A stretch of 64,000 nt of DNA from an uncultured Oscillospiraceae bacterium (GTDB lineage Bacteria; Bacillota; Clostridia; Oscillospirales; Oscillospiraceae): the NCBI GenBank assembly GCA_947626265.1, contig CANQRM010000003.1, forward strand, positions 62,001 through 126,000, given 5' to 3'. Positions within the stretch are counted from its first letter, which is position 1. Each line of letters opens with the position of its first letter. This document shows positions 20,827 through 38,685 of the stretch, one piece after another. The position numbers were made by a program, and so were the translations under genes. The notes under the pieces are model-generated. The model saw nothing but the letters and a program-made list of their open reading frames with translations, was not told the origin of the DNA and searched no databases.

Positions 20827-22703
20827 TACCGAAGATACTCCATTACTGCTGGTTCGGCGGCAAGCCCCTGAGCGCCGAGACGGAAAAGTATATCGCCACC
20901 TGGCGGGCTCAGTGCCCGGACTATGAGATCAAGCGCTGGGACGAGACCACCTTTGACGTCAACATGTGCCCCTATGCCAAAGAGGCCTACGAGGCGAAAA
21001 AGTGGGCGTTCCTCGCGGACTACGCCCGGCTGTGGGCGCTTCATACGTACGGCGGCGTGTACATGGACACGGACGTGGAGCTCATAAAGCCCCTGGACGG
21101 ATTTCTGGGGGAGAGCGCCTTCTGCGGCTTTGAGGAGCAGGGCCGGCTCTGCACCGCCCTCATGGGCTCCGAGCCCGGGGGAAAATGGGTGGGCGCCCTG
21201 CTGGAGAGCTACCGGGACCGGCACTTTTGCCTCGCGGACGGCAGCTTTGACCAGACCACCAACGTGACGGTGATATCCGACCGGACGGAAAAGCTCTTTG
21301 GGTTGAAGCTGGACGGCACGGCCCAGAGGGCGGAGGGGGTGCTGACCCTTTGGCCCCGGGACCGGTTCAGCCCCATGGACTTCGAGACGGGGAAGATAGA
21401 GCGCACGGAAAATACCGTGGCCATCCACCACTTCGTGGCCTCCTGGCACGACGAGAAATGGCTCAAAGAGCGGGCGGTGCGCTATAAGTGCATCCGGCTC
21501 TTCGGCGAGGGCCTGGGAAACCGGATCGCCAACGCCGTGAACTTTGCCCGCCGCCGGGACGGCAGCTTCCGCCGGGGCGTCATCTACTACCTGACCCTGC
21601 CCCTTATCGGGATAAGCCGCCTGTTCCCCCCGGGGAACGCGGTGGTGTTCGAGACGGAGGGGGACTTCTGCGACAACGGCCGGGCGCTGTATGAATACCT
21701 CCTCCGGGTGGGGGCGAACCGCCGCCGGAAGCTCATATGGCTGGTGAAGGAGCCGGAAAAGTTCCGGGACCGGCAGAAGGACAACGTGCTCTTTCTCCGG
21801 CGGGACAGCCTGGCGGGCCGGTACTGGATGAGCCGGGCGCAGTTTTTCTTCTTCACCCACCCCTGGTGGATGAAGAGCTGGCGGCGCGGCCAGACGGTGG
21901 TGAGCCTGTGGCACGGGGTGCCCCTGAAGGCCGGGGACGGACGGGATATGTCGGGGCTTTTCGACTTCTTCACGGCCTCCTCCCCGGAGACCTATGAGCT
22001 CTACCACAAGTTCACCGGCGTGAAGCTCTCCCAGTACCTGCCCCTGGGCCAGCCCCGGCTGGACGTGATGTTCCAGCGCCGGGACCTCTCTCCCCTCTTG
22101 GGGGGCATGGCCCGGGGCCGGGACTATGATAAGCTCATTCTCTGCATGCCCACCTTCCGCCAGACCCAGCGCTGGACGGACGGCACCTTCGCCAACACCT
22201 ATTCCATCAATCCGGTGGAGACCCTGGACGAGCTGGAGGAGCTGAATGCCTTTCTGGCGGCGCACAGGATGGTCCTGGCCGCCAAGATACACCACCTGCA
22301 GAAGCTGGACTTTCTGGCGCGCACCAGCCTTTCCAACATTCTCTACCTCACGGACGACGATCTGATCGCCGGGGATATGCAGCTATACGAGCTGGTGGGC
22401 GGGGCGGACTGCCTGCTGACGGACTACTCCTCCATATACTTTGACTACCTCACCCTGGACAGGCCCATTGGCTTTTTCGTGGGGGATATGGCCCAGTACA
22501 CCCGGGGCTTTCTGGTGGAGGACCCCCTGGCCTGGATGCCGGGGGAGAAGATAGAGGACTTTTCGGGGCTTCTCGCCTTTTTGGCGGACGTCTCCGCCGG
22601 GAAGGATGACTATGGCCCCGCGCGGAAAGAGCTGCGGGACAGGGTGGACCCCTATCAGGATGACGAAAACTGCAAACGCATCGCGGAAAACTTCGGCCTT
22701 TGA
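20823..22703 (+). CDS. Bifunctional GT32-type sugar transferase fused to CDP-glycerol:polyglycerophosphate glycerophosphotransferase-like domain
   Basis: N-term 'MIPKILHYCWFGGKPLS...YGGVYMDTDVELIKPL' (GT32, DxD); C-term 'VVSLWHGVPLKAGDG...LLTDYSSIYFDYLTLDRPIGFF' (TagB/TagF family). Confidence 0.88.
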   Translation: MIPKILHYCWFGGKPLSAETEKYIATWRAQCPDYEIKRWDETTFDVNMCPYAKEAYEAKKWAFLADYARLWALHTYGGVYMDTDVELIKPLDGFLGESAFCGFEEQGRLCTALMGSEPGGKWVGALLESYRDRHFCLADGSFDQTTNVTVISDRTEKLFGLKLDGTAQRAEGVLTLWPRDRFSPMDFETGKIERTENTVAIHHFVASWHDEKWLKERAVRYKCIRLFGEGLGNRIANAVNFARRRDGSFRRGVIYYLTLPLIGISRLFPPGNAVVFETEGDFCDNGRALYEYLLRVGANRRRKLIWLVKEPEKFRDRQKDNVLFLRRDSLAGRYWMSRAQFFFFTHPWWMKSWRRGQTVVSLWHGVPLKAGDGRDMSGLFDFFTASSPETYELYHKFTGVKLSQYLPLGQPRLDVMFQRRDLSPLLGGMARGRDYDKLILCMPTFRQTQRWTDGTFANTYSINPVETLDELEELNAFLAAHRMVLAAKIHHLQKLDFLARTSLSNILYLTDDDLIAGDMQLYELVGGADCLLTDYSSIYFDYLTLDRPIGFFVGDMAQYTRGFLVEDPLAWMPGEKIEDFSGLLAFLADVSAGKDDYGPARKELRDRVDPYQDDENCKRIAENFGL

Positions 22704-22712
22704 GGAGCGGGT

Positions 22713-23543
22713 ATGGACATAGACACAAAAGCGGTACAGGCCCGGGAGCTGGCGATACTCAAAGAGGTATCGGCGGTGCTGGACCGGCTGGGCCTGCGGT
22801 ACTGGGCCGACGGGGGCACCTTGCTGGGGGCCGCCCGGCACAGGGGTTTCATCCCCTGGGACGACGACGTGGACATCGGCATGCCCCGGCCGGATTTTGA
22901 TAAGTTCCGCCATCTGGCCGCCAAGGAGCTGCCCGAATGGCTGGAATTACAGGACTATGAGAACGTGCGCCACGCGGGCCACTCCATCCTGAAGATACAC
23001 GACGTGCGCACCACCTTCGTGGAGGATGTCTTTGCCTCCTGGCCCGAGTGCCACACGGGAGTGTATATCGACATCTTCTGCTTCGACGGCTTTCCGGACC
23101 CGGGGCCGGAGCGGGAGGAACGGGTGCGCCGGAAAAAGCAGTTCATCCGCCTGAACGGCTTTCTGCGGGCCGACTGGCGGGATACCCGCACGGCGGGTGA
23201 GAAGCTGCGGTATATCCTGCTCGCCCCGGTGCGGTGGCTGCTGCCCTTCAACTGGGCGAGCATGTGCCAGGAGGAGCTGTACCGGAAGAGCGATTTCGAT
23301 ACCGCCAACTGGATCAGCGAGTGCTTCGAGTGGGTGGTATACCCCGCCGGATGCCTGCGGGGGACGGTGAAGCTGCCCTTCGAGGACATGGAATTGCCCT
23401 GCCCGGCGGGATACGATGAATACCTGACCACGGTATACGGCGACTGGCGCCAGCCGCCCCCGGAGGGGGAGCGTATCCCCGCCCACCCGGTGGCCTGGTT
23501 CAGTCTGGACAAGTCCTACCGGGACCGCTGGTGGGAAAAATAA
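22713..23543 (+). CDS. LicD family phosphotransferase
   Basis: 'LRYWADGGTLLGAARHRGFIPWDDDVDIGMPRPDFDKF' LicD signature. Confidence 0.93.
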   Translation: MDIDTKAVQARELAILKEVSAVLDRLGLRYWADGGTLLGAARHRGFIPWDDDVDIGMPRPDFDKFRHLAAKELPEWLELQDYENVRHAGHSILKIHDVRTTFVEDVFASWPECHTGVYIDIFCFDGFPDPGPEREERVRRKKQFIRLNGFLRADWRDTRTAGEKLRYILLAPVRWLLPFNWASMCQEELYRKSDFDTANWISECFEWVVYPAGCLRGTVKLPFEDMELPCPAGYDEYLTTVYGDWRQPPPEGERIPAHPVAWFSLDKSYRDRWWEK

Positions 23544-23594: not shown

Positions 23595-24617
23595 TCACTT
23601 GCCCGCGGCCCGGAGCCGCAGCTTCGTGATGAACAGGGCCGGGAGGTATAGCTTGCACTTCACCAGCAGCACGTAGAGCTTGATATACCCCGGCAGGCCG
23701 TCCAGGGTCAGGTCCTTGGCAAGGCCCGTCTCCTTCATGGCGGCGGCTATCCGCTTCGCCGCGGCTGCGAGGCCCGTCCCGCCATACAGCACCTCCATGG
23801 ACAGGCCCCGAATGAGGCCGTTGTGGACCGTGAAGGCGTTGATCTGGGTCGGGAACAGGGGGGAGAGAGGGGCCAGATGGGAGTTTACATAATCTAAAAG
23901 CCACCGTATCTCCTGGAAGAACCGGGGCCGGTAATGGCGCAGGTTGGAGTTCTGGACCCTGCGGTAGATATAGAGCTTCTCCCGGGAGATGTACACGCTG
24001 TCGGCGAACCAGAGGCACTCGTAGGTCATGGCCGTGTCCTCGTAGAGGGTGATGCGGCCGTCGGAGAGGTAGTGCTCCGCGATGAGCGCCCGCCTCCACG
24101 CCTTGGTGTACAGGAAGCCGGGCAGCAGCTGGGTGCCGAAGGGGGCGCGGCGGGCGTCGCAGACCATGTAGGGGTATATCTCCTTTTCCAGGCGGGCCTT
24201 GTCGTAATATCCCTCGTCGGCGTATACGGGCTGCTCGACCTCGCCGGTGTCCCGGGCGATGTCGCAGACCACCACGTCGGGATGGTGGGCGTCGATATGC
24301 TCCTTGAGTACCGCCAGCCACCGGGTCTCCACCCAGTCGTCCGCGTCGGCGAAGCACACATACTCGCCCTTCGCTCTATCCAGGCCCGCCTTCCGGGCGG
24401 GGGTGGGACCGGCGTTGGCCTGATGGATAACCGAGACGCGGCTGTCCCGGGCGGCATAGGCGTCGCAGAGGGCGGGGCTGCCGTCAGGGGAGCCGTCGTC
24501 CACCAGAATGAGCTCAAAGTCGGGGCAGGTCTGGGCGAGGATGCTCTCCACGCACTGAGAGAGATACTTCTCCGCGTTGTAGACCGGGACGATGACGGAA
24601 AAAAGCGGCATAGGCAA
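23595..24617 (-). CDS. GT2 family glycosyltransferase
   Basis: 'LFSVIVPVYNAEKYLSQCVESILAQTCPDFELILVDDGSPDGSPALCDAYAARDSRVSVIH...CFADADDWV'. Confidence 0.92.
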   Translation of the reverse strand: MPMPLFSVIVPVYNAEKYLSQCVESILAQTCPDFELILVDDGSPDGSPALCDAYAARDSRVSVIHQANAGPTPARKAGLDRAKGEYVCFADADDWVETRWLAVLKEHIDAHHPDVVVCDIARDTGEVEQPVYADEGYYDKARLEKEIYPYMVCDARRAPFGTQLLPGFLYTKAWRRALIAEHYLSDGRITLYEDTAMTYECLWFADSVYISREKLYIYRRVQNSNLRHYRPRFFQEIRWLLDYVNSHLAPLSPLFPTQINAFTVHNGLIRGLSMEVLYGGTGLAAAAKRIAAAMKETGLAKDLTLDGLPGYIKLYVLLVKCKLYLPALFITKLRLRAAGK

Positions 24618-24623
24618 CTCCTT

Positions 24624-25619
24624 TCAGTCCATGCGTGCGCGCACCAGCGCCGCGGCCGCCGGCCACAGCCGGCACTTTAAAAGCACTAAAAAGGCCTTCA
24701 TGTAAAGGGGCAGGCCGTCGAAGGAAAGCTCCCCGGGGATGCCCGTCTCCCGCATGGCCCGGCCCGTGTTCCGGGCGGCGGCGGAGAGGCTGTCCCCGTG
24801 GGCGCACTCGGTGGCTATGGCGGTGATGACCATGCCCATGTACGCGCCGTTGATCTGCCTGTCGATGGCGGGCTCCAGGCCGCCCATGCGCCGGCGCAGA
24901 TACTGAAAGCAGGTCTGCACTTCCTGAAAGTACCGGGGCCGGTAGGCGTTTAAAAGCGACCCCTCCCGCAGCCGGTAGACATACAGGGGCTCGTGGGTAA
25001 TATACATGCTCCCGGCGTAATACATGCACTCGTAGGCCATGGCCACGTCCTCAAAAAGGGTGACGCCGGAGGCGGCCTCCACGTAGTGGTCCAGCAGCAG
25101 CTGCCGCTTTCCCACCCGGGCCCAGATGAAAGCGGGCACCTTCCGGGAGGGGGCGGCGTTGTCGCAGATCATGTAGGGGTATACCTCTTTTTCCAGGCGG
25201 GATTTGTCGTAATACCCCTCCGCCGCGCCGATGGGGTAGCGGGTGGGACCGATGTCCCGGGTGTGGCCGAAGAGGACGATGTCCGGTCGGTGGTTTGCGT
25301 CGATGTGGCCCTTCACCGTCTCCAGCCAGTTGGGCAGCACCCAGTCGTCGGAGTCCACAAAGGCCACGTATTCGCTTTTCGCCGCGTCCAGGCCCGTCTT
25401 CCGGGCGGCGGCGAGGCCGCCGTTTTCCCGGTGGATGACCCGGATGCGGGGGTCTTTTTCGGCGTATGCGTCGCAGAGGGCCGGGCAGCCGTCGGGGGAG
25501 CCATCGTCCACCAATATGAGCTCAAAGTCGGTCCAGGTCTGGGCCAATATGCTCTCCACGCACTGGGAAAGGTATTCTTCCACCTTGTAGACCGGGACCA
25601 CCACGGAAAATTCGCTCAC
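24624..25619 (-). CDS. GT2 family glycosyltransferase
   Basis: GTG start 25619 gives 'VSEFSVVVPVYKVEEYLSQCVESILAQTWTDFELILVDDGSPDG'; overlaps upstream gene's stop by 4 bp. Confidence 0.9.
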   Translation of the reverse strand: MSEFSVVVPVYKVEEYLSQCVESILAQTWTDFELILVDDGSPDGCPALCDAYAEKDPRIRVIHRENGGLAAARKTGLDAAKSEYVAFVDSDDWVLPNWLETVKGHIDANHRPDIVLFGHTRDIGPTRYPIGAAEGYYDKSRLEKEVYPYMICDNAAPSRKVPAFIWARVGKRQLLLDHYVEAASGVTLFEDVAMAYECMYYAGSMYITHEPLYVYRLREGSLLNAYRPRYFQEVQTCFQYLRRRMGGLEPAIDRQINGAYMGMVITAIATECAHGDSLSAAARNTGRAMRETGIPGELSFDGLPLYMKAFLVLLKCRLWPAAAALVRARMD

Positions 25620-26659
25620 GCCCCCGCCCCCTTTCCGGCCATGGCCGCCGCGATGCGCACGCACAGGCCCGTAAAGCCCATGTCCAGCAGACGGTAGAAT
25701 ACCCGGGTGGCCATATCCCCCCGGGCGGCGGCATAGCGGGTCAGGGCCCCGGCGGGGGCGCCGTCATGGAAGTTTTTGACCAATGCCCGCCGCTGGGCCA
25801 TAGAGAGGTCCGCCCGGCCCGCGGCCCGGTAGACGCGGGCGTGGACCATGCTGCCCACGAAGGCCAGCACGGCGTTTTTATCCATGTTGAAATCTTCCGC
25901 CACTTTGCGCAGGGCCTCATATACGGCCCCGATGCGGGCAAGCTCCTCCTCCCCGGAGCGGTGGGACACGGAGCCTGAGAGGATGCGGTGGTGGTATTTG
26001 GCGGTCGTGGGCGCGGTGACAACTTTCTCAGCCAGGGACACCGCCGCGGCGTTCAGTACCGCGTCCTCCCCCAGGGACAGCCGCCCGTCATACCAGGGCA
26101 GGGCTTTTTGAAGCAGATCCCGCCGATAGAGCTTGTCCCACTTGGCGTAGGTCAGGGGCCGGTCCGGCTTATCGGGGACGCCGTCGTAGCGGAAGGAGAG
26201 CATGTACTCCTCCGCCAGACGCTTTAAGTCTTCAAGTCCCTCCCAGCAGGTGACGCCGGTGCGGCGGCTGCCCATGGTGCGCTGGGTATCCCCGGAGAAT
26301 ATCTCATTGACGAACTGGCCTTCTATGATGTCCGCGCCGTGGGTTTCCAACGCATGCAAAAGCTCGGCGAACCAGTCCGGGTCCACCCAGTCGTCCGCGT
26401 CCACGAAGCCCAGAATGTCCCCTTGGGCGGCCTCTATCCCCGCGGCCACGGCGTCGGCCACGCCCCCCGGGGCCCGGTGCAGGACCCGGACGCGGGCGTC
26501 CTTCGCCGCGTAGGCGTCGCACAGGGCGGGGCTCTCATCCGTGGAGCCGTCGTCCACCAGAATGAGCTCCCAGTCCTCCATGGACTGGGCAAGGACGCTG
26601 TCCACGCATGGGGCGAGATACGCCGCCGCGTTGTAGACGGGTACGATGACGGATACCAT
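25616..26659 (-). CDS. GT2 family glycosyltransferase
   Basis: ATG 26659 gives 'MVSVIVPVYNAAAYLAPCVDSVLAQSMEDWELILVDDGSTDESPALCDAYAAKDARV...GFVDADDWV'. Confidence 0.9.
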   Translation of the reverse strand: MVSVIVPVYNAAAYLAPCVDSVLAQSMEDWELILVDDGSTDESPALCDAYAAKDARVRVLHRAPGGVADAVAAGIEAAQGDILGFVDADDWVDPDWFAELLHALETHGADIIEGQFVNEIFSGDTQRTMGSRRTGVTCWEGLEDLKRLAEEYMLSFRYDGVPDKPDRPLTYAKWDKLYRRDLLQKALPWYDGRLSLGEDAVLNAAAVSLAEKVVTAPTTAKYHHRILSGSVSHRSGEEELARIGAVYEALRKVAEDFNMDKNAVLAFVGSMVHARVYRAAGRADLSMAQRRALVKNFHDGAPAGALTRYAAARGDMATRVFYRLLDMGFTGLCVRIAAAMAGKGAGA

Positions 26660-26667
26660 AGCGCGCC

Positions 26668-27648
26668 TCACAGGAGCCTGGTGAGCTCTTTGTACCAGCC
26701 CCGCCGGTCTACGAACTGGCGCACGCATATGTCCGCCCTATCGTTGCCCTCGATGAGGCACACGCCTTTGTCCGTCACGGCCACGTCCCAGCCGATGTAG
26801 CGCATGTCGGGCACCTCTTTGGCCGCGGCGGTGACGAGAGAGACCGCCTCCTCCCAGTGGGGCACATGATAGCCCGGGAAGGGGACGCCGCTCAAGGGGT
26901 GCACCACATACTCCCGCCGGTTCATGTCGATGGCGGGGGTGGTGACGACGCCGGTATCCACGTCGATGTGGGCGGCCATGCCCCCTGCGCCCATGTTATC
27001 CACCACCGCGTTCCCCGCGCCGGTGCGCAGGAACGCGGAGAAGACGTGCACATTGCCCTTTCCGTCCACCATGGTGTTGAGCCGGGGCACGTTGGTGCTG
27101 GCGGGATTGAAGGCGGCAAGGCTGGAGTGCTGCAGCACCATCTCCTCCGCCAGCATGTCCCGGCTGCCGTCGTAGAGGGCGCGCAGGTCGTCCGCCGGGT
27201 CGTAGTCATAGCGGGAGATGCCCTTGCCGCAGGAGAGACTGGTGGCCTTGAGCATCACATGGCCGTGGGCCTTGACGAAGGCTTCAAATTCGTCGAAGCT
27301 GGCCTGTGAAAGGTCCAGCCAGTCCCGGTTCAAATAGGGCGCAAAGCGCCGGTTGAAGGCGGCCTTGTTGATGAAAAGCTGCTTGTCCCCGGTGTTGACC
27401 TTTTGGATGAAGCGCTCGAAGCGGAGCATAGTGAAGTACCGGGCCCGCTCCCGGTCGCTTTTTTTGTCGAAGTTCAGCTGGGCGTACTCCGCGGGGCTGG
27501 AGCCGTGGCGCGCCACGCACCAGAGCATGCTCACCCAGTTGGTGAAGCAGCCCCAGCCTGTATATTGGGCCTTCATCTGCTCCCGGAAAAATTCGAAGGA
27601 GCTCTGGAAAAGCCCTTTTAAGGTGGCCTCCCGAAAGATGTCGCTCAT
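26668..27648 (-). CDS. Sugar-transfer-associated ATP-grasp domain protein
   Basis: ATG 27648; 'HVMLKATSLSCGKGISRYDYD...LAEEMVLQHSSLAAFNPASTNVPRLNTMVDGKGNVHVFSAFLRTG...IGWDVAVTDKGVCLIEGNDRAD' typical of ATPgrasp_ST. Confidence 0.78.
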   Translation of the reverse strand: MSDIFREATLKGLFQSSFEFFREQMKAQYTGWGCFTNWVSMLWCVARHGSSPAEYAQLNFDKKSDRERARYFTMLRFERFIQKVNTGDKQLFINKAAFNRRFAPYLNRDWLDLSQASFDEFEAFVKAHGHVMLKATSLSCGKGISRYDYDPADDLRALYDGSRDMLAEEMVLQHSSLAAFNPASTNVPRLNTMVDGKGNVHVFSAFLRTGAGNAVVDNMGAGGMAAHIDVDTGVVTTPAIDMNRREYVVHPLSGVPFPGYHVPHWEEAVSLVTAAAKEVPDMRYIGWDVAVTDKGVCLIEGNDRADICVRQFVDRRGWYKELTRLL

Positions 27649-28619
27649 GCCTTGTCCTCTTTCTTCTCCGCCGCGGGGGCATTCTCCGTGCGGCGGACGG
27701 TGTACTGGGGCAGGTCGCTGACGGTCATGAAGATGCGCCCCACATACTCCCCCAGGATGCCCAGCATCATCATGATAACGCCGCCGATGAAGCACTGCAC
27801 GGCGATGGAGGTGGTGTAGCCGGCGGCGATGTGGGCGTTCAGGAGCTTGCGGATGACCATGATCACCGCCACGAGAAAGCCGAACACGGCGGTCAAAACG
27901 CCCACCACCGACGCCATCCGCAGGGGCACGATGGAGAAGTTCGTGAGGGCCGTCACCGTCAGGGCCAGCAGGCGCTTTAAGCTGTAGTTGGATTTGCCCG
28001 CCAGGCGGTCCCGGTGCTCCATGGGGACGTTGGCGATGCGGGTGGTGATGCGGTTGAGGTAGAGCCCCGCCGCGGGGAAGGGGCTGTGGTAGTTTTTCGC
28101 CGCGTCCACGGCCATGCGGCTCCAGGCGGTGAAGGAGCTGACCGCGATGCCCCGGGGCCGGTTGCCCATCCAGGCGGCCACGGCCTGGTAGAGCCTGGAG
28201 CAGGTGCGCTTGAACCAGGAGTGGTGCTTCTGGGGGAACTGGGCGTACACCACGTCGTAGCCCTCGGCCAGTTTGTCCAGCATGGGGAAGATGCCCTCCG
28301 CCGGGTGCTGGCCGTCGTCGTCCATATATACCACCGCGTCGCCGTCGGCGTAGGCCAGCGCCGCCTGCTTGGCGGCGGCCTGGCCGTAGTTGCGGGAAAG
28401 CTCCACCCCCACGATGTGCGCGTCCTCTTTGCACAGCGCGCATATCACGTCATAGGTGTCGTCGGGAGAGCCGTCGGAGACCAGAATGAGCTGGTAGTCA
28501 TAGCCCTCGTGCTTGGCAAAGGCCTCGCGTATTTCCTTCACTACCGCGGGCAGGGTCTGGGCGCTGCGGTAGCAGGGGATGCATACGGATACGAGCATAG
28601 CTTTTTCCTCCCCGTTCAT
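27645..28619 (-). CDS. GT2 glycosyltransferase with C-terminal TM helices (GtrB/ArnC-like)
   Basis: 'LVSVCIPCYRSAQTLPAVVKEI...DDDGQHPAEGI', two TM segments near C-terminus. Confidence 0.9.
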   Translation of the reverse strand: MNGEEKAMLVSVCIPCYRSAQTLPAVVKEIREAFAKHEGYDYQLILVSDGSPDDTYDVICALCKEDAHIVGVELSRNYGQAAAKQAALAYADGDAVVYMDDDGQHPAEGIFPMLDKLAEGYDVVYAQFPQKHHSWFKRTCSRLYQAVAAWMGNRPRGIAVSSFTAWSRMAVDAAKNYHSPFPAAGLYLNRITTRIANVPMEHRDRLAGKSNYSLKRLLALTVTALTNFSIVPLRMASVVGVLTAVFGFLVAVIMVIRKLLNAHIAAGYTTSIAVQCFIGGVIMMMLGILGEYVGRIFMTVSDLPQYTVRRTENAPAAEKKEDKA

Positions 28620-29689
28620 GTGTCAGAAAGGCGGAACGCGCCGGGCTTATCGCCGGGCGTCAGGGCGTGGTCGAAGATGCCCTTTTCCTGCAGGGGCAGG
28701 GTCCGGGCCAGGTGTTTGGCCCGCTGGTAGAAGTCCCAGCCCAGGGCCACGTCCACGTAGGAAAGGCCTACGGCGTTGAAGTAGATGAACTCCTCCGGCT
28801 TTTCCCGGCCGGGGATGCGGCCCGCCACGATGTCGGGCAGGTCCCCATGGATGTCGCTGTCACGGAGCTTCCCGGCCTGGTAGAGGCGGGTGAGGGTGGG
28901 GCTTCCCCGGCTTCTCAGGTGATGCCAGTTGTCGCAGACGATCTTGTCCGCCTTGAAGACGGTCTCGTCGTCGTCCTCCCAGCCGCCCACGTGGCTGTAG
29001 AAGGCCCCGGGCTTGCACCATGCTCCGTGGAGCACCGGCGCCTGGCCGCTGATGGCCGTGACGATCACGTCCGCGCCCGTGGCGGCCTTCTCATAGTCCC
29101 CCCCGCAGGGGATGAACTCCATGTCGGGGAAGAGGGGAGAAAGCTCCCGGATGAACTCCTGCTCCCTTGCCTCGGTCCGGGAGGACACCCGGCAGACCCG
29201 CAGCCCCGGCAGGGCGGTCTTCAGCCCCGCCAGGTGCATTTTTGCCATCTCCCCGGCGCCGATGAAGCCGATCTCTGCGCTGTCGGGCCGGGCCAGGTAC
29301 TTGGCCCCCACGGCGCTGACCGCGGCGGTGCGGACGGCGGAGCAGAGCATGGCCTCGATGAGGGCGATGGGATAGCCCGTCTCCAGACTGGACAGCAGCA
29401 CCACCGCGGACTGGTTCTGGGTGCCGAAGCGGTGGGGGTTTTCCGGGAACACGGATATCCACTTGGCCCCGCACACCCCCTTATCCAGCAGCGTGGCCGG
29501 GAGGATGTTGATGCGGCTCTGCACCGCCTCGTCGAAGATCTGCACGGTCTTGTCCGGATAGAGGACCCGGCCATTGGCGTAGGCCAGCATGACGTCCTCC
29601 ACCACGGCCATGGCCCGCTCCATGTCGAAGCAGCCGGCCCGGAGCATGTCCTCCTGGGAGAGATATTGAATGTTGAGCTCGGTTTCCAT
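28616..29689 (-). CDS. Ornithine cyclodeaminase / mu-crystallin family NAD(P)-dependent enzyme
   Basis: 'LSQEDMLRAGCFDMERAMAVVEDVM', 'LIEAMLCSAVRTAAVSAVGAKYLARPDSAEIGFIGAGEMAKMHL' (Rossmann GxGxxA region). Confidence 0.83.
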   Translation of the reverse strand: METELNIQYLSQEDMLRAGCFDMERAMAVVEDVMLAYANGRVLYPDKTVQIFDEAVQSRINILPATLLDKGVCGAKWISVFPENPHRFGTQNQSAVVLLSSLETGYPIALIEAMLCSAVRTAAVSAVGAKYLARPDSAEIGFIGAGEMAKMHLAGLKTALPGLRVCRVSSRTEAREQEFIRELSPLFPDMEFIPCGGDYEKAATGADVIVTAISGQAPVLHGAWCKPGAFYSHVGGWEDDDETVFKADKIVCDNWHHLRSRGSPTLTRLYQAGKLRDSDIHGDLPDIVAGRIPGREKPEEFIYFNAVGLSYVDVALGWDFYQRAKHLARTLPLQEKGIFDHALTPGDKPGAFRLSDT

Positions 29690-29705: not shown

Positions 29706-30959
29706 TCAGGAAAAACGGTAGAGCTGGAAGATCATATTTTCGCCCCGGTCGTCCTCCGCCCGGAGCAGGGCGGTCACTTCATCTACGGCGGCGGCCAGGC
29801 CGGCCATATCGTCGTACAAAAGATGCAGGTAGCAGAACACCTGGCTCACGGTGCCGGTGGCCCGGATGGTATCCCCCGCCCGGTGGATGGGCACGTAGGC
29901 GTAGACCTGGGGAAGGGCCCGGACCGCCTCCTCGCCGGAGACGGACTTTATGACGCCGGGGCGGATATGCAGCGGCAGGATGCCGTAACGCTTCCCGGCG
30001 GGCCTGTCCCGGCGGATGAGGCTCGTATGCTTCGCGGGATCGGGCTTGTCGCCTAAGGCGTAGCGCAGCATCAGCTCCAATTGGTCCACGCCGGTGAAGT
30101 AGCGCACCGGGTGATAGGTCATGGACCCGCCAAAGCGGTAGCCCATCTCGTTGAAGATAAAATGGCCCCGGTCGTTGAACGCCTCGATCCACACCGGCCC
30201 GTCGTGCATCCCCGCGGCGCGGAACATGGCCCGGACCTTTTCGTCCAGCGTGGCGAGATACTGCTCGGTCCAGGCGGAGGGGAACTGCTGCAATGCCATG
30301 ACGGACCCGCCGCCCTCGCCAAGGAGCATGGAGCGCTTATCGGATATGCCGCCAAACAGGGCCTCGCCGCCGCAGAGGGTGTAGTGGATGATGGAGGCGT
30401 CGTAAGGGATATATTCCTCTATCAGCACCGTGCCGGTGCGGGAGAAGGGCAGGGCCTTTTGAAGCGCGGGGGCCAGCTCCTCCGGGGCCCGGCAGATGGA
30501 GAAGCCCTGGCTGCCGCAGCTGTCCGCGGGCTTCACCGCCACGGGATATTCCACGCTTTCGGGTTTCGCCGGGTCATAGGTCTTCGCCACCGGGATGCCC
30601 GCCGCCCGGCACATGGCCTTGAATTTGGCTTTGTTGGCGCAGTCGTCCCACATCTTCCCGTCGCAGTAGATGGGAAGGCCGGTCCTCTCCGCCGCGGCGA
30701 TGGCGTGGGGCATCACATCCTCGTTGTTGCCGGGGAACACCCCGTCGATGTGGGCTTCTTTTATAAGCGCGGCCAGGGCGTTCTCGTCCACCGCGTCGGC
30801 GTCGTAGCGCTCGTCGGCGATGGCCTTTAAGGCGGTGAGGCCGAAGCGGGGCGGGGCGGTGGCGATGAGAGTGACGCCGTTTGCGTCCGCGAAGCGGCGG
30901 ATGTCCTCGGTGCTGTTGGACCCGCCCAGCAGCAGCAGGCGCTTTCCTTGAAGGGTCAT
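29706..30959 (-). CDS. ATP-grasp ligase
   Basis: ATG 30959 gives 'MTLQGKRLLLLGGSNSTEDIRRFAD'; 'PVAVKPADSCGSQGFSICRAPEEL...VLIEEYI...FNEMGYRFGGSM' ATP-grasp features. Confidence 0.83.
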   Translation of the reverse strand: MTLQGKRLLLLGGSNSTEDIRRFADANGVTLIATAPPRFGLTALKAIADERYDADAVDENALAALIKEAHIDGVFPGNNEDVMPHAIAAAERTGLPIYCDGKMWDDCANKAKFKAMCRAAGIPVAKTYDPAKPESVEYPVAVKPADSCGSQGFSICRAPEELAPALQKALPFSRTGTVLIEEYIPYDASIIHYTLCGGEALFGGISDKRSMLLGEGGGSVMALQQFPSAWTEQYLATLDEKVRAMFRAAGMHDGPVWIEAFNDRGHFIFNEMGYRFGGSMTYHPVRYFTGVDQLELMLRYALGDKPDPAKHTSLIRRDRPAGKRYGILPLHIRPGVIKSVSGEEAVRALPQVYAYVPIHRAGDTIRATGTVSQVFCYLHLLYDDMAGLAAAVDEVTALLRAEDDRGENMIFQLYRFS

Positions 30960-32068
30960 AAACGTTCTCCCAAAGTTATCCACCAGCCGTGGCGGCTGGC
31001 GCTGTCGGTGACGCCGCCGTCGGGATGGCCGTCATAGCTGCAGCGCCAGAGGGCCTCCGGGGCGTCTCGTTTTATTCTCTCCAGTTTTTCCGCGTCATCC
31101 CGGGTGAAGATGAACCGCACCGCCGCGGCGTGGGGCGCCCGCTTGGGGGCAAGGTCCGGGGCGTGCCCTAAGGCGACGTCGATGACGGCGGCCATGTAGT
31201 CCACGCCGGTGGACAGATACACCAGGTCCGAGCCGATGCAGTCCCCGCCCATGCGGGCGCCGATCTCGATGATGCGGGCCCGGCCGTCGGGGCCCAGGCG
31301 GAACTCGGCGTGGCTGGCCCCATAGCGGACGGACAGGGCGTCCAGGGCTTTCTTGATATCGGCATGGATGGCGGGGATGAGCGCCGCCGGGATGTCCGAG
31401 GGCTCGTCGTGGCCCGTCTCGATGAAGTGGGGCGCGCCGGTGGTGTATTTCTTCGTCAGCGCCAGGATGTGGTGTTCCCCGGCGAAGGACACGCTCTCGC
31501 AGCTGTACTCCGGGCCGGTGAGGACTTCCTCTATGATGGCCTCCCGGTGGAAGGACTGGGCCGCCGCCTGGGGGATGGCGGCGCAGAGAGACGGATAATC
31601 TGATACCTGGAAGATGCCCCGGCTGCCGGAGCGGTCCGTGGGCTTCACGATGAGGGGCCAGGTCATGTTCGCCAGCTCCTCCTCCGCCGGCGGGGCGGAG
31701 ACCTTCATGAACCGGGGGCAGGCCACTCCCGCCGCGGCCAGGGCCCGGCGCATCTCATACTTATCCGTGGCGATGGTGTCGGTGATCTCCGGGTTGCAGG
31801 GGATGCCCAGCTTTCGCTGGACGTAGTTCACCGTGTGCACGGCCAGATCCGACCCGATGGAGCAGCACCCCTCCACGCCCTCGGCTTTGCATACCTGCCA
31901 GATGGCCTCCTTCTCCGTGATGCTGATGGGGTGGAACCTGTCCGCGAGCTTTTCCCCCACGTCCCCCGCCGCCCAGGCGAACGCGTGGGTCTCAAAGCCC
32001 ATCTCCTTCGCCTTTTGGATGAGGGGGGCCTGAAATTCATTGGCGCCGATGACGGCCAGCTTTCTCAT
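30956..32068 (-). CDS. ATP-grasp ligase (biotin carboxylase-like / amino-acid ligase-like)
   Basis: 'KLAVIGANEFQAPLIQKAKEMGFETHAF...PLIVKPTDRSGSRGIFQVSD...IIEVGARMGGD'-type motif 'RIIEIGARMGGDCIGSDLV'. Confidence 0.86.
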   Translation of the reverse strand: MRKLAVIGANEFQAPLIQKAKEMGFETHAFAWAAGDVGEKLADRFHPISITEKEAIWQVCKAEGVEGCCSIGSDLAVHTVNYVQRKLGIPCNPEITDTIATDKYEMRRALAAAGVACPRFMKVSAPPAEEELANMTWPLIVKPTDRSGSRGIFQVSDYPSLCAAIPQAAAQSFHREAIIEEVLTGPEYSCESVSFAGEHHILALTKKYTTGAPHFIETGHDEPSDIPAALIPAIHADIKKALDALSVRYGASHAEFRLGPDGRARIIEIGARMGGDCIGSDLVYLSTGVDYMAAVIDVALGHAPDLAPKRAPHAAAVRFIFTRDDAEKLERIKRDAPEALWRCSYDGHPDGGVTDSASRHGWWITLGERL

Positions 32069-32083
32069 AAACGCTCCTTTGTG

Positions 32084-34288
32084 TCAGCCCTCCATAAGGC
32101 TGTAGGCGGTGGTGGTGTATACCTGTTCGCCCTCGGCCGTGACGCCGGCAGTGAGCCGGGCCTCGCTGCCCGCGGGGGCGAAGGTGTAAGTCTTCCCGTC
32201 GATGACCTGCTCTCCGGTGAGAGCCTGGCCGTCCTGGAAGTAGTAGGTCATGCCGTTCTGCTCATGCCAGCCGGTATAGCCCTCCGAGGGACAGACAATG
32301 TCCAGGTCCGTGACAAAGGTGTCCGCGGTGAGCTGGGCAGCGCTCCTCGCCTGGACGGGGCCGAAGTCCAGCGTCAGGTATTGCAGCAGCGCCAGGATGG
32401 TGCTGGGCCTCTGGCACATGAATTGGACATCCTCCCGGAAGAAGGCATCGGCGTAGAGCCGGTCCGGGTCCGACGTGACGCCGGTGCCGCCCCACAGGTG
32501 CATGTTGCCGGGGTAGGCCGTCGCGTCGTGGAAGGGGTCCAGGTTTTGACTGATAAAGTTGGTGACGAAGTATATATCCGGATGGGCGCTGGCGTAGCTC
32601 TCCGTGGCATCCTGGAAGGCGAAGACATCCTTCCGGCCCACGGCCTCGCCGGTGTAGGGCACGCTCCGGGCGGAGAGCCCCGCCGTGACGCACAGCGCCG
32701 CGCCAAGGACAACGGCGATGGCCTTCTGCCAGGGCCGGGCGGGCTTTTCCGCCGCCGGGCCGGACAGGGCGAACAGGAGGAGCATCACCGCCGCGGGGAT
32801 GACCACCACCAGGTGGACCCTGAGCAAAAACCGCCCCTGCCGGATGAGGTACAAAAGCAGCACCGCCCCGCCGCCGAAGGCGGCCAGGGCCCCCAATATC
32901 TCCGGCCAGCAGCGCCTGCCCCGGCGGAGAAGCGTCAAAAGCGCCAGCGCCAGCAGCAGGGGCAGGCACAGGGCCGTCAGGGCCATGGTGCGCAGATGGC
33001 CGGCGCTCTCCATGGAGGTGGCCGCCGCCAGGGAGCCGGCCGCCAGGGAGGGCTCATAGTACATGTCCGCGATGGCCTTGAAGGTGTCGGTGTTGACGCG
33101 CTCGTCCATGAAGTACCAGGCCCGCAGGAGGTTGGATAGCTCCGGGGGCAGGCCCGCGGCTTCCAGCTGCTCGTTGGTAAGACCGTCTATGAGGTAGTCC
33201 ATGACGACGGAGCGGTAATGCTCGGCCTCGGCGTATCCGGCGGAGGCGGCGGGGTCCTGCCCGGCGTCGGAGCTGTCCAGCCAGAGACGGCCCACGCCCT
33301 CGTAAAGCCCGAAGCCCACGGCGGCGCAGAGGGCCAGGGCGGCGAGACGCCGTGCCCGGTCCGGGTCCTTTTGAAGCCATATCCTGAGCAGCTGATACCC
33401 CACCGCCAGGGCCCAGAAGCACATGATGCACTGGGCCGTGTAGGTGCGCTGCAGCCGAACCAGCAGGAGCATCAGCAGGCACCCGAGGTCTGTGGCGATG
33501 CGCCCGGCCCGGCTTTTCGTCCCGTCCCGGCAGAGGGTGAGGGCCACCGCCGCCGTGCCCAGCAGAGCGGGGGTCACCGTGAAGGAGAGCTCCGCCGCCG
33601 CCGGCAGGGCCAGCCCCGCGCACAGGAGGGCAAATATACCCATGCCGCCCAGGGCGGACATGCCCCGGCGGGAGGTCTTTAAAATGATGCACCGGCCGAT
33701 GACGGTGAGGGAGACGGCGATGGCGAGAATGTGGTAGCCGCCGTACCAGTACCCGTGGGGGTCGATGCGGTAAAAAAGGCCCAGAAGGCCGCAGAACAGG
33801 TAATGGGAAAAGGCGTGGGCGGCAGCGCCAAGCCCCTCCGCGGGGATGCGGGCGATGGTGCGCATGAGCGTCACGTCGTCGTTGGTCATGAAGGAAATGA
33901 CCGTGACCCGCCATGTCCACAGGAGGAACAGCCCCGTCATGCCCGCCGCGGCCAGCCATCGGGAGCTATCTTTCGTCATGGCCCTGTCAAGCCCCGCCAG
34001 GAGCTTTTCACCCCTATCCGCGGCGAACAGGGCCATAAAGGCCACCGCGAGAGCCAGAAACAGCGCCGTCCGGCCGGGATAGGCCGTGCCGCCCCAGGCG
34101 GGCAGCAGCGCCTCCGCCGTCATGCGCCGGGCGACGGCGCTCTGGACGGCGAGATAGGTCAAAAGCGCCGCGGCCAGGGCCCGGAGCGCCACGGACCACT
34201 TGTCCTCCCTGGAGGCATACAACCGCCCGCACACCACCGCCGCGGCGGCGGTGAGGGCGAATATGGCGATGTAGCGCAGGTAGGTCAT
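32084..34288 (-). CDS. Polytopic GT-C-like membrane protein with C-terminal extracytoplasmic region ending in cell-wall-binding-repeat-like segment
   Basis: 734 aa, many TM segments; 'SFMTNDDVTLMRTIARIP' acidic motif after an early TM; C-term 'GWHEQNGMTYYFQDGQALTGEQVIDGKTYTFAPAGSEA'. Confidence 0.65.
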   Translation of the reverse strand: MTYLRYIAIFALTAAAAVVCGRLYASREDKWSVALRALAAALLTYLAVQSAVARRMTAEALLPAWGGTAYPGRTALFLALAVAFMALFAADRGEKLLAGLDRAMTKDSSRWLAAAGMTGLFLLWTWRVTVISFMTNDDVTLMRTIARIPAEGLGAAAHAFSHYLFCGLLGLFYRIDPHGYWYGGYHILAIAVSLTVIGRCIILKTSRRGMSALGGMGIFALLCAGLALPAAAELSFTVTPALLGTAAVALTLCRDGTKSRAGRIATDLGCLLMLLLVRLQRTYTAQCIMCFWALAVGYQLLRIWLQKDPDRARRLAALALCAAVGFGLYEGVGRLWLDSSDAGQDPAASAGYAEAEHYRSVVMDYLIDGLTNEQLEAAGLPPELSNLLRAWYFMDERVNTDTFKAIADMYYEPSLAAGSLAAATSMESAGHLRTMALTALCLPLLLALALLTLLRRGRRCWPEILGALAAFGGGAVLLLYLIRQGRFLLRVHLVVVIPAAVMLLLFALSGPAAEKPARPWQKAIAVVLGAALCVTAGLSARSVPYTGEAVGRKDVFAFQDATESYASAHPDIYFVTNFISQNLDPFHDATAYPGNMHLWGGTGVTSDPDRLYADAFFREDVQFMCQRPSTILALLQYLTLDFGPVQARSAAQLTADTFVTDLDIVCPSEGYTGWHEQNGMTYYFQDGQALTGEQVIDGKTYTFAPAGSEARLTAGVTAEGEQVYTTTAYSLMEG

Positions 34289-34302
34289 AGCCGCTCCTTG
34301 TG

Positions 34303-36459
34303 TCAGTCTGCTATAAGGCTGCAGGCGTCGGTGGTGTAGATAACCGCGCCGCCTTCGCCGGCGATGGGCATGAACTGAGCTTCGCTCCCGGCGGGGGCAA
34401 AGGTATATGTCTTGCCGTCGATAAGCTGCTCGCCGGTGAGGGCAACGCCGTCCCGGAAATAATAGGTCATGCCGTTTCGCTCATACCAGCCCGTGTAGTC
34501 TTCCCCGGGGGAGACGGCGTCAATGTCCGTCACGGCGACGCCCTCGCCCAGCTGGGCGGTGAGCGACGCCTGCACGGGGCCGTATTCCACGCTCAGATAT
34601 TGCAGCAGGGCGGCCAGGGTGGAGAACCGGTCGTTCATAAAGAGCACGTCCTCCCGGAGGAAGGCGTCGGCGTAGAGCCGGTCCTCAGGGGCCTTGGCCG
34701 TGTCGCCGCAGTAGCCCCACTGAACGATGTTTTCAGGGTAATCGCCCAGAGGGCAGAGGGGGTCGGTGTTGGCCTCGTGGTGGTCGTAGACGCTGGAGAT
34801 GATGAGCTTGTCCCCGTTTTGGGCGGCGAGATCCTCGATGGCGGACTGCAGGGCGAACACGTCCGAGCGGGTGACGGCCTCCGCCGCCCGGGGGGTGGTA
34901 TAGGCGCCCAGGGCGCAGCAGATCACCGCGGTCACAGCGCCCAGGGCGGCCAGCGTCCCGGCGGCGCGCCGCCGGGAAGGAGCAGGGGCCTTCGCGTTCG
35001 CCGGGGCGGTCAGCGCCGTTAAGAGCAGCAGCACTGCCGCGGGCAGCGTCACCACCAGAAACACCCGCAGGGGGAAGCGGCCCATATCCACCAGGTACAA
35101 CAGCAGTATCCCCGTGCCGCCCAGGGCGCACAGCGCGCATAATAGCTCCAGCCACCACCGCCTGCCGAAGCGGATGAGGGCGGCGGCGCAGCAGAGAAAT
35201 ACGGCAAAGATGAATCCCAGCCGCGCGGACATCTGTCTGTCCGCGCGCACATAGCCGGCCAGCCGGGAGAGAAGACCGCCCGCCCGGGAGAGGGCGGAGG
35301 CGTTCCCGCCGCCGGTCTGGTTCTGGTAGTGGATGTTGATCACGTCCCGGAAAAGGTCCGTGGTCACCTGCTCGTCCATGAAGAACCAGCCGTGTATCAG
35401 CGTGGCCAGCTCTCGGGAGACGCCCGCCTGTTCATACTCCTCCAGGGTCAGCTCGTCGTTGAGGAAGTCCACGATGCGGGAGCGGTAATTCTCCGCCTGG
35501 CTGTAGGCGGGGTCGACGGGGACGATCTCGGCGCGGCCGATGGCCGTCACGCCCAGGGCGATGGCCAGGGACGCGGCAGCGAACAGGGCGGTCCGCCCCA
35601 AACCCGTCCGGGCCAAAAGCATGCGCACCAGCTGATAGCCCACAGCCACGGCCCAGAAACACAGCGCCGCCCGGCCCGTCTGCCGCCGCTGGAGGATGCT
35701 GAGGACCAGGAGGACGGCCGCCGCTATGTCGGACGTGACCCTGCCGGCGGTGGTCTTGTTCCCGTCCCGGCAGAAGGTGAGCGCTATGGCCGCGGAACCC
35801 GCCACGGCGGGGGTCACGGTGAAGGAGATGGCGGCGAAGCAATAGAGGAAAAGCCCTGCGCACAGCCCGGCCTGGATGGCCGCACCGGCCCAGGCGGGCC
35901 ACCCACGGCCGCAGGTCCGCATCAAAATGCACCGGCCGATGACCGTGAGGGAGACGAGCAGCACGGTAAGGTGAAAGCCCAGATACCAATACCCGTCCGG
36001 ATAAAGGCCGTAGAGCTTCCCCAGGGCCCAGCTCAGAAGCTGGCTGGAGAACACGCCGGCGGTGGCGTCCAGGCCCTTCTCCGGCACTTGGGCGATGGCC
36101 AGCAGGAACGTGGTGTCGTCCATGGTCATGTAGGCCAGCACCGTCACCCGCAGGGCCCAGACGAAAAACAGCGCCGTGACCGCCCCGGCGGTGAGCCAGC
36201 GCCACCGGTCCTTCTGGCAGGCCCGGTCCCAGGCGGCGAGCATGGCCCGGCCCCTGTCCGTCAGGGCCAGGGCGAAGCCCAGCACCAGAAAGGCCCCCAG
36301 CCGCGCCAACCGCCCGGGGAGGAAGGCTCCCTCCGCCACGGGCAGGAACAGGTCCAGACCCACCCGCCGGGCCACGGCGCTCTCCGCCGCCAGAAAGGCG
36401 ATGAGCCCCGTCATGAGCCCGGCCAGGGCCGCGCCCCATGGATAGCGCCGCTGGGTCAT
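34303..36459 (-). CDS. Paralogous polytopic GT-C-like membrane protein with C-terminal cell-wall-binding-repeat-like segment
   Basis: 718 aa; 'AYMTMDDTTFLLAIAQVPEKGL'; C-term 'GWYERNGMTYYFRDGVALTGEQLIDGKTYTFAPAGSEA'; collinear with neighbouring paralogue. Confidence 0.65.
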   Translation of the reverse strand: MTQRRYPWGAALAGLMTGLIAFLAAESAVARRVGLDLFLPVAEGAFLPGRLARLGAFLVLGFALALTDRGRAMLAAWDRACQKDRWRWLTAGAVTALFFVWALRVTVLAYMTMDDTTFLLAIAQVPEKGLDATAGVFSSQLLSWALGKLYGLYPDGYWYLGFHLTVLLVSLTVIGRCILMRTCGRGWPAWAGAAIQAGLCAGLFLYCFAAISFTVTPAVAGSAAIALTFCRDGNKTTAGRVTSDIAAAVLLVLSILQRRQTGRAALCFWAVAVGYQLVRMLLARTGLGRTALFAAASLAIALGVTAIGRAEIVPVDPAYSQAENYRSRIVDFLNDELTLEEYEQAGVSRELATLIHGWFFMDEQVTTDLFRDVINIHYQNQTGGGNASALSRAGGLLSRLAGYVRADRQMSARLGFIFAVFLCCAAALIRFGRRWWLELLCALCALGGTGILLLYLVDMGRFPLRVFLVVTLPAAVLLLLTALTAPANAKAPAPSRRRAAGTLAALGAVTAVICCALGAYTTPRAAEAVTRSDVFALQSAIEDLAAQNGDKLIISSVYDHHEANTDPLCPLGDYPENIVQWGYCGDTAKAPEDRLYADAFLREDVLFMNDRFSTLAALLQYLSVEYGPVQASLTAQLGEGVAVTDIDAVSPGEDYTGWYERNGMTYYFRDGVALTGEQLIDGKTYTFAPAGSEAQFMPIAGEGGAVIYTTDACSLIAD

Positions 36460-37580
36460 CGCTTGTAAAAGGCCGTGACGGCCTCCACAGCCTTCTCCAC
36501 GTCGGAATCGGCGAGGCCGTAGTGCATGGGCAGGCGCAAAAGCCGCTCGCTCTCCCGGGTGGTGTACTTATCCTCCCCGTGGAACCGGCCGAAGCGCAAT
36601 CCCGCCGTGGCGGAGTGAAGGGGCACATAGTGGAACACGGACTGGACGCCCCGCTCCCGCAAGAAGGCGATGAGGGCGGTGCGCTCGGAGATGTCCCTGG
36701 CCTTGACGTAGAACATGTGGCCGTTGTGCACGCACCCTTCGGGGACGGCCTGCCAGTCGATACAGCCCTCCCGTTCCAGGGGTGCCAGGCCCTCCCGGTA
36801 GAGCTGCCAGCTGTGGAGCCGGGCGGCGTTTATCTCGTCCGCCATCTCCAGCTGGCCGTAGAGGTAGGCGGCGTTCAGCTCGCTGGGCAGGTAGCTGGAG
36901 CCCAAGTCCTCCCAGGTGTATTTATCCACCTGGCCCCGGAGCAGCCGGGCCCGGTTGGTGCCCTTCTCCCGGATGACCTCCGCCCGGGGGTCATCCTCCC
37001 GCAGGAGGATGGCGCCGCCCTCGCCCATGGAGTAGTTTTTCGTCTCATGGAAGCTGTAGCAGCCGTAGTCCCCGATGGCCCCCAGGGCCCTGCCCTTGTA
37101 GGTCGCCATGACCCCCTGGGCCGCGTCCTCCACCACCTTCAGGTCATGGCGGCGGGCGATGTCCAGGATGGCGTCCATCTCGCAGGCCACCCCGGCGTAG
37201 TGCATGACGCATATGGCCCGGGTCCGGGGCGTAATGGCATCCTCGATGAGCTTTTCGTCTATGTTCATGGTGTCCGGCCGGATGTCCACGAATACGGGCA
37301 CCGCCCCGGCCAGGACGAAGGCGTTGGCCGTGGAGGAGAAGGTATAGGAGGGCAGGATGACCTCGTCCCCGGGCTGGAACTGGCAGAGAAGCGCCGCCAT
37401 GTCCAGGGCGTGGGTGCCGCTGGTGGTCAGGAACGCCCGGGCCGCGCCGGTGCGTTCCGTGAGCCATTCGTGGCACTTTTTCGAGAAGGCCCCGTCGCCG
37501 CATATCTTATGGGAGTGGATGGCCTCCAGAACATACTGGTCCTCCCGGCCGCAGTAGGGGGGTATGTTGAACAGGATCAT
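36456..37580 (-). CDS. DegT/DnrJ/EryC1 aminotransferase, dTDP-4-amino-4,6-dideoxygalactose transaminase-like (WecE/RffA)
   Basis: 'ILFNIPPYCGREDQYVLEAIHSHKICGDGAFSKKCHEWL', 'TTSGTHALDMAALL', 'YSFHETKNYSMGEGGAI'. Confidence 0.9.
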   Translation of the reverse strand: MILFNIPPYCGREDQYVLEAIHSHKICGDGAFSKKCHEWLTERTGAARAFLTTSGTHALDMAALLCQFQPGDEVILPSYTFSSTANAFVLAGAVPVFVDIRPDTMNIDEKLIEDAITPRTRAICVMHYAGVACEMDAILDIARRHDLKVVEDAAQGVMATYKGRALGAIGDYGCYSFHETKNYSMGEGGAILLREDDPRAEVIREKGTNRARLLRGQVDKYTWEDLGSSYLPSELNAAYLYGQLEMADEINAARLHSWQLYREGLAPLEREGCIDWQAVPEGCVHNGHMFYVKARDISERTALIAFLRERGVQSVFHYVPLHSATAGLRFGRFHGEDKYTTRESERLLRLPMHYGLADSDVEKAVEAVTAFYKR

Positions 37581-37605
37581 GTGTTTCCTCCGATATGTCC
37601 GCGCG

Positions 37606-38628
37606 TCAGCGGTTGGCGTACATCCGCTCGTAGTAGGTCTTGTACTCGCCGGAGACGATCTGCTCCCACCAGGGACGGTTGTCCAGGTACCAGCGGATGG
37701 TCTTTTTGATGCCGTCGGCAAAGGCGGTCTCCGGCGTCCAGCCAAGCTGGGCGTGTATCTTCGCCGGGTCGATGGCGTAGCGCAGGTCGTGGCCCTTCCT
37801 ATCGGTGACGTAGGTGATGAGGCTCTCGGGCTTATCCAGGGCCTGGCAGATGAGCTTCACGATGTCGATGTTGCGCATCTCGTTGTGGCCGCCGATGTTA
37901 TAGACTTCGCCGATGCGTCCTTTCTCCAGGATGAGATCGATAGCCTTGCAGTGGTCCTCCACATACAGCCAGTCACGCACGTTCAGGCCCTGGCCGTAGA
38001 CGGGCAGGGACTTGTCGGCAAGGGCGTTCGCGATCATCAGGGGGATGAGCTTTTCCGGGAACTGGTAGGGGCCGTAGTTGTTGGAGCAGCGGCTCACCGT
38101 CACCGGCAGGCCATAGGTGCGGTGATAGGCCAGGGCCAGCAGGTCCGCCCCCGCCTTGGAGGCGCTGTAGGGACTGGAGGCGTGCAGCGGCGTGCTCTCG
38201 GTGAACAGAAGGTCCGGCCGGTCCAGAGGCAGGTCCCCGTAGACCTCGTCGGTGGAGACCTGGTGGAAGCGGATACCCCCGTGGGCCCGGCAGGCGTCCA
38301 TGAGCACCTGCACACCCAAGACGTTGGTCTTCAGGAATATCTCCGGGTCCTCGATGGACCGGTCCACGTGGGTCTCGGCGGCGAAGTTCACCACCGCATC
38401 GGGCTTTTCCGCCTCAAAGATGGCGTCTATCCCCGCCCGGTCCCGGATGTCCTGGCGGTAGAAGGTGAAGCGGCTGTCCTCCATGGCCCGGGCCAGGGTG
38501 GACATGTTTCCCGCGTAGGTGAGGCTGTCCACGCAGACGATGGAAACGTCCGGACGGTTATCCAGCAGGTAGTAGACGAAGTTGGCGCCGATGAAGCCGG
38601 CGCCGCCGGTGACCAGCAGTTTTTTCAT
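37606..38628 (-). CDS. rfbB: dTDP-glucose 4,6-dehydratase
   Basis: 'MKKLLVTGGAGFIGANFVYYLLDNRPDVSIVCVDSLTYAGN', 'ETHVDRSIEDP', 'PYSASKAGADLL'. Confidence 0.95.
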   Translation of the reverse strand: MKKLLVTGGAGFIGANFVYYLLDNRPDVSIVCVDSLTYAGNMSTLARAMEDSRFTFYRQDIRDRAGIDAIFEAEKPDAVVNFAAETHVDRSIEDPEIFLKTNVLGVQVLMDACRAHGGIRFHQVSTDEVYGDLPLDRPDLLFTESTPLHASSPYSASKAGADLLALAYHRTYGLPVTVSRCSNNYGPYQFPEKLIPLMIANALADKSLPVYGQGLNVRDWLYVEDHCKAIDLILEKGRIGEVYNIGGHNEMRNIDIVKLICQALDKPESLITYVTDRKGHDLRYAIDPAKIHAQLGWTPETAFADGIKKTIRWYLDNRPWWEQIVSGEYKTYYERMYANR

Positions 38629-38685
38629 AGGTCCTCCCATTGGCAGACTTTATTTTATAATAAACCTATTTCTTCCTATTAAAGC

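Follow-up and report, generated by a model that had tools for sequence, protein, structure and literature searches.

What is a repeat of the type found in choline- and glucan-binding proteins doing at the end of a membrane protein with many helices? The question is raised by two adjacent genes, q1 and q2, in a 64,000-nucleotide stretch of DNA (hereafter, the window) from an uncultured Oscillospiraceae bacterium (GenBank assembly GCA_947626265.1, contig CANQRM010000003.1, positions 62,001 to 126,000 of the forward strand). Both open reading frames (ORFs) were found at the coordinates given by an earlier reading of the sequence alone (the original prediction), and both lie on the (-) strand: q1, which encodes 734 amino acids (aa) and has a 91% identical orthologue in locus L020, at 32084..34288, and q2, its tandem paralogue of 718 aa, at 34303..36459. 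The two genes are collinear and arranged head to tail with 14 bp between them, and their products are 48% identical over the length; no third full-length copy was found in the window's genome. In our opinion, it is moderately probable that q1 and q2 are GT-C glycosyltransferases acting on the outer face of the membrane, which place an amino-sugar on a surface polysaccharide while the C-terminal tail holds the enzyme near its acceptor.

A conserved tail of three predicted hairpins

The C-terminal segments were originally described as near-identical and similar to choline- and glucan-binding repeats, and profile searches confirm this. Pfam Choline_bind_3 (PF19127, curated cut-off 27 bits) matches the tail of q1 (aa 669-734; 32087..32284, (-)) at 26.6 bits (E 6e-6) and that of q2 (aa 653-718; 34306..34503, (-)), also delimited by homologue alignment, at 21.2 bits (E 2.8e-4). 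In a scan of the whole genome q1 reaches 31.4 bits, so the profile check once proposed for the C-terminus places this copy above the cut-off. All 14 aligned homologues match PF19127, the best of them with scores near the curated cut-off, and the NCBIfam glucan-binding repeat TIGR04035 matches the segment well under its own cut-off. A profile of the family also matches solved CROP repeats of clostridial toxins, where the best E of 2e-20 is a sum over many repeats, and repeats of glucansucrases, with an E of about 5e-5. Within the window, a hidden Markov model of the tail matches the q1 and q2 ORFs only, the latter at E 1.5e-37 (the q2 sequence being part of that model). The tail motif is not expected by chance; when the last 120 aa were shuffled 200,000 times, its regular expression never matched.

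The tail is also where conservation is strongest. Among the 14 homologues, the most conserved 36-residue stretch lies in the tail (residues 655-690), with a mean pairwise identity of 0.79 vs 0.50 overall, and the GW and TYYF residues are invariant across paralogues that are 45% identical. The q1 and q2 tails of the window's genome are 86% identical, compared with 43-48% for the remainder of the proteins. Fourfold synonymous sites are least divergent in the tail, at 0.30, compared with 0.35 for the outer domain and 0.43 for the membrane part; because the value for the tail is little below the rest, the constraint appears to act mainly on the protein sequence. These comparisons point mainly to such selection and not to recent gene conversion. 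A recent spread of the tail through gene conversion is likewise not favored, since its fourfold sites are nearly as divergent as those of the body. Between the two closest genomes, conservation of the tail (84-89%) does not exceed that of the body (about 90%), an observation that is based on small numbers and is not fully explained.

Modeled separately with AlphaFold, the outer domain and tail yield hairpins at positions 138-150, 157-168, and 177-191 of the construct, and the predicted local distance difference test score (pLDDT) is roughly 80-95 across the tail and mostly at least 90 in the first two hairpins. Foldseek matches this model to CROP repeats of clostridial toxins, to choline-binding domains, and to the repeats of glucansucrases, and the local superposition on some CROP repeats has a root-mean-square deviation (rmsd) of about 1 Å. 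The β-hairpin repeat fold expected by the original prediction is therefore borne out by the models, which give the tail three hairpins; the first is a full GW repeat, and the other two are degenerate.

The degeneracy of the repeats bears on a second account of the tail, in which the body is still a GT-C transferase and the tail, having no ligand, serves as a structural or stabilizing cap or as a dimer interface. There is a single complete repeat, the GW Trp is absent from the second and third hairpins, and the Trp of the WYYF position is absent from the first and second, all of which would suit a cap. On the other hand, the GW and TYYF residues are invariant and the tail is conserved above the level of the catalytic body, while tailless homologues suggest that the body folds without it; we regard this account as rather unlikely.

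The tailless relatives come from family, order, and class samples and include L015, L016, and L041, for which the alignment or sequence was checked, and L042, where the match spans the body only. The L015 protein is collinear with q2 and ends at about q2 residue 648, just ahead of the tail. Since the tailless homologues stop at the boundary of the tail, the alignments identify the tail as a module appended C-terminally to an older protein; for the same reason, insertion of the tail before a last strand was rejected. In the window's own genus, a q gene is present in 15 of 35 genomes, and all 17 copies that reach the end of the profile carry the tail, two further copies being cut by contig ends. 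No protein combining body and tail was found outside the genus in the family, order, and class samples, where matches are either tail-only or body-only. Ten loci found in a scan of a genome collection belong to metagenome-assembled genomes of uncultured Oscillospiraceae with names containing Lapin, which suggest a rabbit gut origin, as far as a host can be read from a name.

The membrane body and its GT-C likeness

The full-length model of q2 (AlphaFold; mean pLDDT 70, predicted template-modeling score 0.70, alignment of 14 sequences) was compared with the PDB using Foldseek. The first five matches, ArnT, PglB, EmbA-EmbB, EmbC2, and EmbB, are all GT-C proteins, with probabilities spanning 0.63-1.00 (1.00 for ArnT and 0.97 for PglB); the sixth is the choline-binding domain of Spr1274. 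A match of the body to DUF2339 was dismissed as noise.

The acidic motifs MTNDDVT and MTMDDTT contain a DD pair at aa 137-138 of q1 (33875..33880, (-)) and aa 114-115 of q2 (36115..36120, (-)), a putative catalytic or metal site of GT-C type. Its first residue is an invariant Asp and its second is Asp or Glu in 14 homologues; the DD/DE motif is retained in the tailless homologues, as is an Arg-rich motif of the RFxxR type. The motif had originally been located after an early transmembrane helix, as in the first loop of GT-C enzymes; the motif itself stands, but in q2 it follows the third predicted helix, not the first. A 13-helix model of q2 built from the predicted helices concentrates positive charges in most of the assigned inner loops and puts the DD motif, the loop 309-409 (roughly 100 residues), and the C-terminal 200 residues all outside. 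The C-terminus is thus predicted to be extracytoplasmic, as the original prediction needed.

Several observations weigh against the interpretation of q1 and q2 as outer-face GT-C enzymes held by their tails. The mean pLDDT of the q2 model is only 70, a value obtained with just 14 sequences. The Foldseek matches to GT-C structures have E-values of 9e-3 at best, TM-scores < 0.4, and large rmsd, and no Pfam or NCBIfam model, including the ArnT (GT83) family, recognizes the q body. One complete and two degenerate repeats are few for stand-alone binding, and no GtrA-type flippase is encoded in the window. Given the weak E-values and TM-scores, membership in the GT-C class rests on the rank of the matches, the topology, and the gene context. 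The ArnT, PglB, EmbB, and EmbC structures at the head of the ranking, together with a conserved DD/DE motif predicted to face outward, support the GT-C-like body proposed originally.

A probable amino-sugar operon

Upstream of q2 on the same strand are genes for RmlB, a dTDP-glucose 4,6-dehydratase (37606..38640, (-); TIGR01181, 486 bits, cut-off 365), and WecE, a dTDP-4-amino-4,6-dideoxygalactose transaminase (36456..37601, (-); NF008687, 585 bits, cut-off 375). Downstream of q1 follow two ATP-grasp ligases (30956..32068, (-), PF13535, 3.5e-18; and 29706..30983, (-), of amino-acid ligase type by ATP-grasp families and LAL_C2) and an enzyme of the ornithine cyclodeaminase, SbnB, or alanine dehydrogenase type (28616..29689, (-); PF02423, 1.8e-54; SbnB family, 4.3e-55, under cut-off). 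Next is a GT2 of the ArnC or polyprenyl-phosphate sugar transferase type (27645..28619, (-); PRK10714 (ArnC), 4.6e-53, under the equivalog cut-off), which has hydrophobic C-terminal helices at aa 217-282. The strand continues with a sugar-transfer-associated ATP-grasp protein (26668..27645, (-); PF14397, 3.9e-41, inside ORF 26668-28443) and three further GT2 glycosyltransferases (23595..26728, (-); PF00535).

The RmlB and WecE genes, the ATP-grasp ligases, and the ArnC-like transferase make it most likely that, within a glycosylation system of several components, the pair carries out the step at the outer face. In the scheme that we propose, RmlB and WecE would produce dTDP-4-amino-4,6-dideoxygalactose (Fuc4N), and the ATP-grasp ligases and SbnB-like enzyme would probably attach an amino acid to Fuc4N or to an intermediate further along the pathway. 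As the probable donor synthase, the ArnC-like GT2 would put the sugar on undecaprenyl phosphate (Und-P); this neighbor is the one feature suggesting that q1 and q2 use a lipid-phosphate-linked sugar. A flippase, either one of three GtrA-type candidates encoded elsewhere in the genome or another protein, would turn the Und-P-sugar outward, and q1 and q2 would then transfer the sugar to a surface polysaccharide made by their own locus. Outside the membrane, the three-hairpin tail would bind a wall carbohydrate or substituted glycan and so keep the enzyme close to its acceptor. Of this picture, the genes and their neighbors, the conservation, the predicted topology, the fold of the tail, and its terminal addition come from sequence or models, whereas the activity, donor, acceptor, ligand, and docking role are inferred. 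In L015, a homologue of the ArnC-like gene with 40% identity lies immediately upstream of the tailless q homologue. This pairing, the ArnC-like gene of the window, and the exchange of genes at the q position described below fit the multi-component scheme (PMC8035078) and three-component systems (PMC11127046).

The opposite strand encodes a Wzx-type flippase (19225..20826, (+); PF01943, 4.1e-11), a LicD-family phosphotransferase (22713..23543, (+); PF04991, 8.1e-39), and two GT2s. Between the first two lies a fusion ORF (20823..22703, (+)), in which a DXD sugar-transferase region (PF04488) is joined to a CDP-glycerol glycerophosphotransferase (PF04464).

With a Wzx-type flippase in the locus and no recognized Wzy among the genes scanned, one or both q proteins could be Wzy-type polymerases that join polysaccharide repeat units, and not transferases adding a side branch from Und-P-sugar. 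It would agree with this that q is more variable than the flanking genes and that Wzy_C weakly matches one of the tailless homologues (16.4 bits, under cut-off). The DD/DE motif, the GT-C ranking in Foldseek, and the ArnC-like partner gene argue otherwise, as does the presence of the flanking locus without q in many members of the genus, and a polymerase is in our view unlikely.

Sister genomes largely preserve the gene order, which is bordered at one end by genes for a DHH protein and chromate transport and, in several cases, by LicD at the other end. In genomes of the genus that lack q, the slot following WecE is often filled by other polytopic proteins that carry no tail, and in some it contains nothing polytopic; the tail was not found on any other transferase occupying this slot in sister genomes. 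One or two such proteins (about 450 and 530-600 aa) are encoded at L026:12178-15196 and L029:10983-12779, where they stand beside q, and in L066-L069, L071, L072, and L075, which lack q. The 599-aa slot protein has no Pfam match, and these alternatives are possible unclassified GT-C enzymes. Upstream of the RmlB gene, L024 carries a YfhO-family gene (L024:4993-7728), and L021 and L022 carry similar ORFs, the Pfam match having been checked for L024 only. A WbqC-like gene (L024:11956-12807 and L071:4220-4927) takes the slot that belongs to the ATP-grasp and SbnB-like genes in other genomes, suggesting exchangeable routes to acylate the amino-sugar.

What the tail might bind

A choline cage is built from the GW Trp, the WYYF Trp, and a Tyr of the next repeat. 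In the tail this aromatic cage is incomplete: the WYYF Trp of the first hairpin is replaced by Thr in 14/14 tails, and the second hairpin lacks GW. Secreted repeats of the window's genome, by comparison, have Trp at the WYYF position in 17/32 cases. These substitutions bear directly on the original prediction, in which the tail would bind choline and dock on phosphocholine that LicD has put in place. That version can appeal to the name of the Pfam family, to the Foldseek matches with the choline-binding domains of Spr1274 and C-LytA, and to LicD genes in the window and several sister loci. Moreover, the genome has elsewhere a group of genes (L036:568-3589, G000:C18) in which a 582-aa ORF combining winged-helix, nucleotidyltransferase, and choline-kinase domains is followed by another nucleotidyltransferase and by a BCCT transporter; judging from these choline-pathway genes, phosphocholine decoration is possible in an organism that has tailed q1 and q2. 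Nevertheless, the tail is at least as similar to CROP and glucan-binding repeats. The LicD gene noted originally is real, but LicD does not track the tail: within the genus it is present in 12/15 genomes that have the tail and in 12/20 that do not, and the association is not significant (Fisher p = 0.28). Phosphocholine is accordingly not supported as the ligand, and docking on it seems to us distinctly improbable.

The most likely ligand is a wall carbohydrate or substituted glycan. In the window's genome, eight further repeat proteins that were inspected start with a signal-like helix and have no additional transmembrane segment (a ninth runs off its locus), in line with the original view that such a tail is unusual on a polytopic protein. 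Many such repeat proteins are encoded in the genus, so its wall is probably rich in a ligand for this type of repeat. A single-helix protein ending in wall-binding repeats was also noticed in a type IV pilus operon with PilM and PilC/T2SSF homologues (G000:C9:67005-68057; L035:7006-8058). Its weak T2SSM similarity was read as PilO-like; one sister genome has a near-identical copy and two others have shorter, N-terminal-only homologues, and it may be a part of the pilus machine that grips the wall.

As to precedents, the ArnT/ArnC aminoarabinose system likewise has an ArnC-like GT2 partner and a 4-amino-sugar pathway, and ArnT is the top structural match of the q2 model. The system described here differs in its Fuc4N-type sugar, in a presumed monoderm surface glycan in place of lipid A, in the added tail, and in the lack of a sequence-family match. 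The Gram-positive CsbB/GtcA/YfhO systems (PMC8035078) also combine a GT2 having membrane helices with a GT-C protein, whereas q is not YfhO by Pfam and its added module has a different fold. EmbC is a GT-C enzyme with a C-terminal extracytoplasmic carbohydrate-binding module shown to bind acceptor analogues (PMC3044687), and AftD and potentially YfhO have been suggested to carry extracellular carbohydrate-binding domains (reviewed in PMC8035078). The q proteins would share the general plan of EmbC, and by this analogy they may plausibly dock on the very glycan that they modify; the EmbC module is, however, a lectin-like β-sandwich, whereas the q tail is a β-hairpin wall-binding repeat. With choline-binding, CROP, and glucan-binding repeats (PF19127, PF01473, TIGR04035) the tail shares the sequence motif and hairpin fold, and it differs from them in having very few repeats, a polytopic carrier, and no Trp at the WYYF position. 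A limited, term-based search of open-access literature found no earlier case of wall-binding or choline-binding repeats on a polytopic enzyme. The pair would thus be a new combination of known parts, in which the kind of module is novel and the principle is known from EmbC.

Acceptor choice and holding by extracytoplasmic GT-C enzymes are largely open questions, which a small, separable, and highly conserved tail, together with the existence of tailed and tailless homologues, makes testable. More tentatively, and with a rather low probability, one may picture a GT-C transferase tethered to, perhaps walking along, the wall polymer that it modifies, with one repeat code common to the recruitment of secreted proteins and to glycan decoration. 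If the proposed role is true, wall-binding repeats, which are otherwise found here on secreted proteins, would extend to membrane-embedded enzymes of synthesis.

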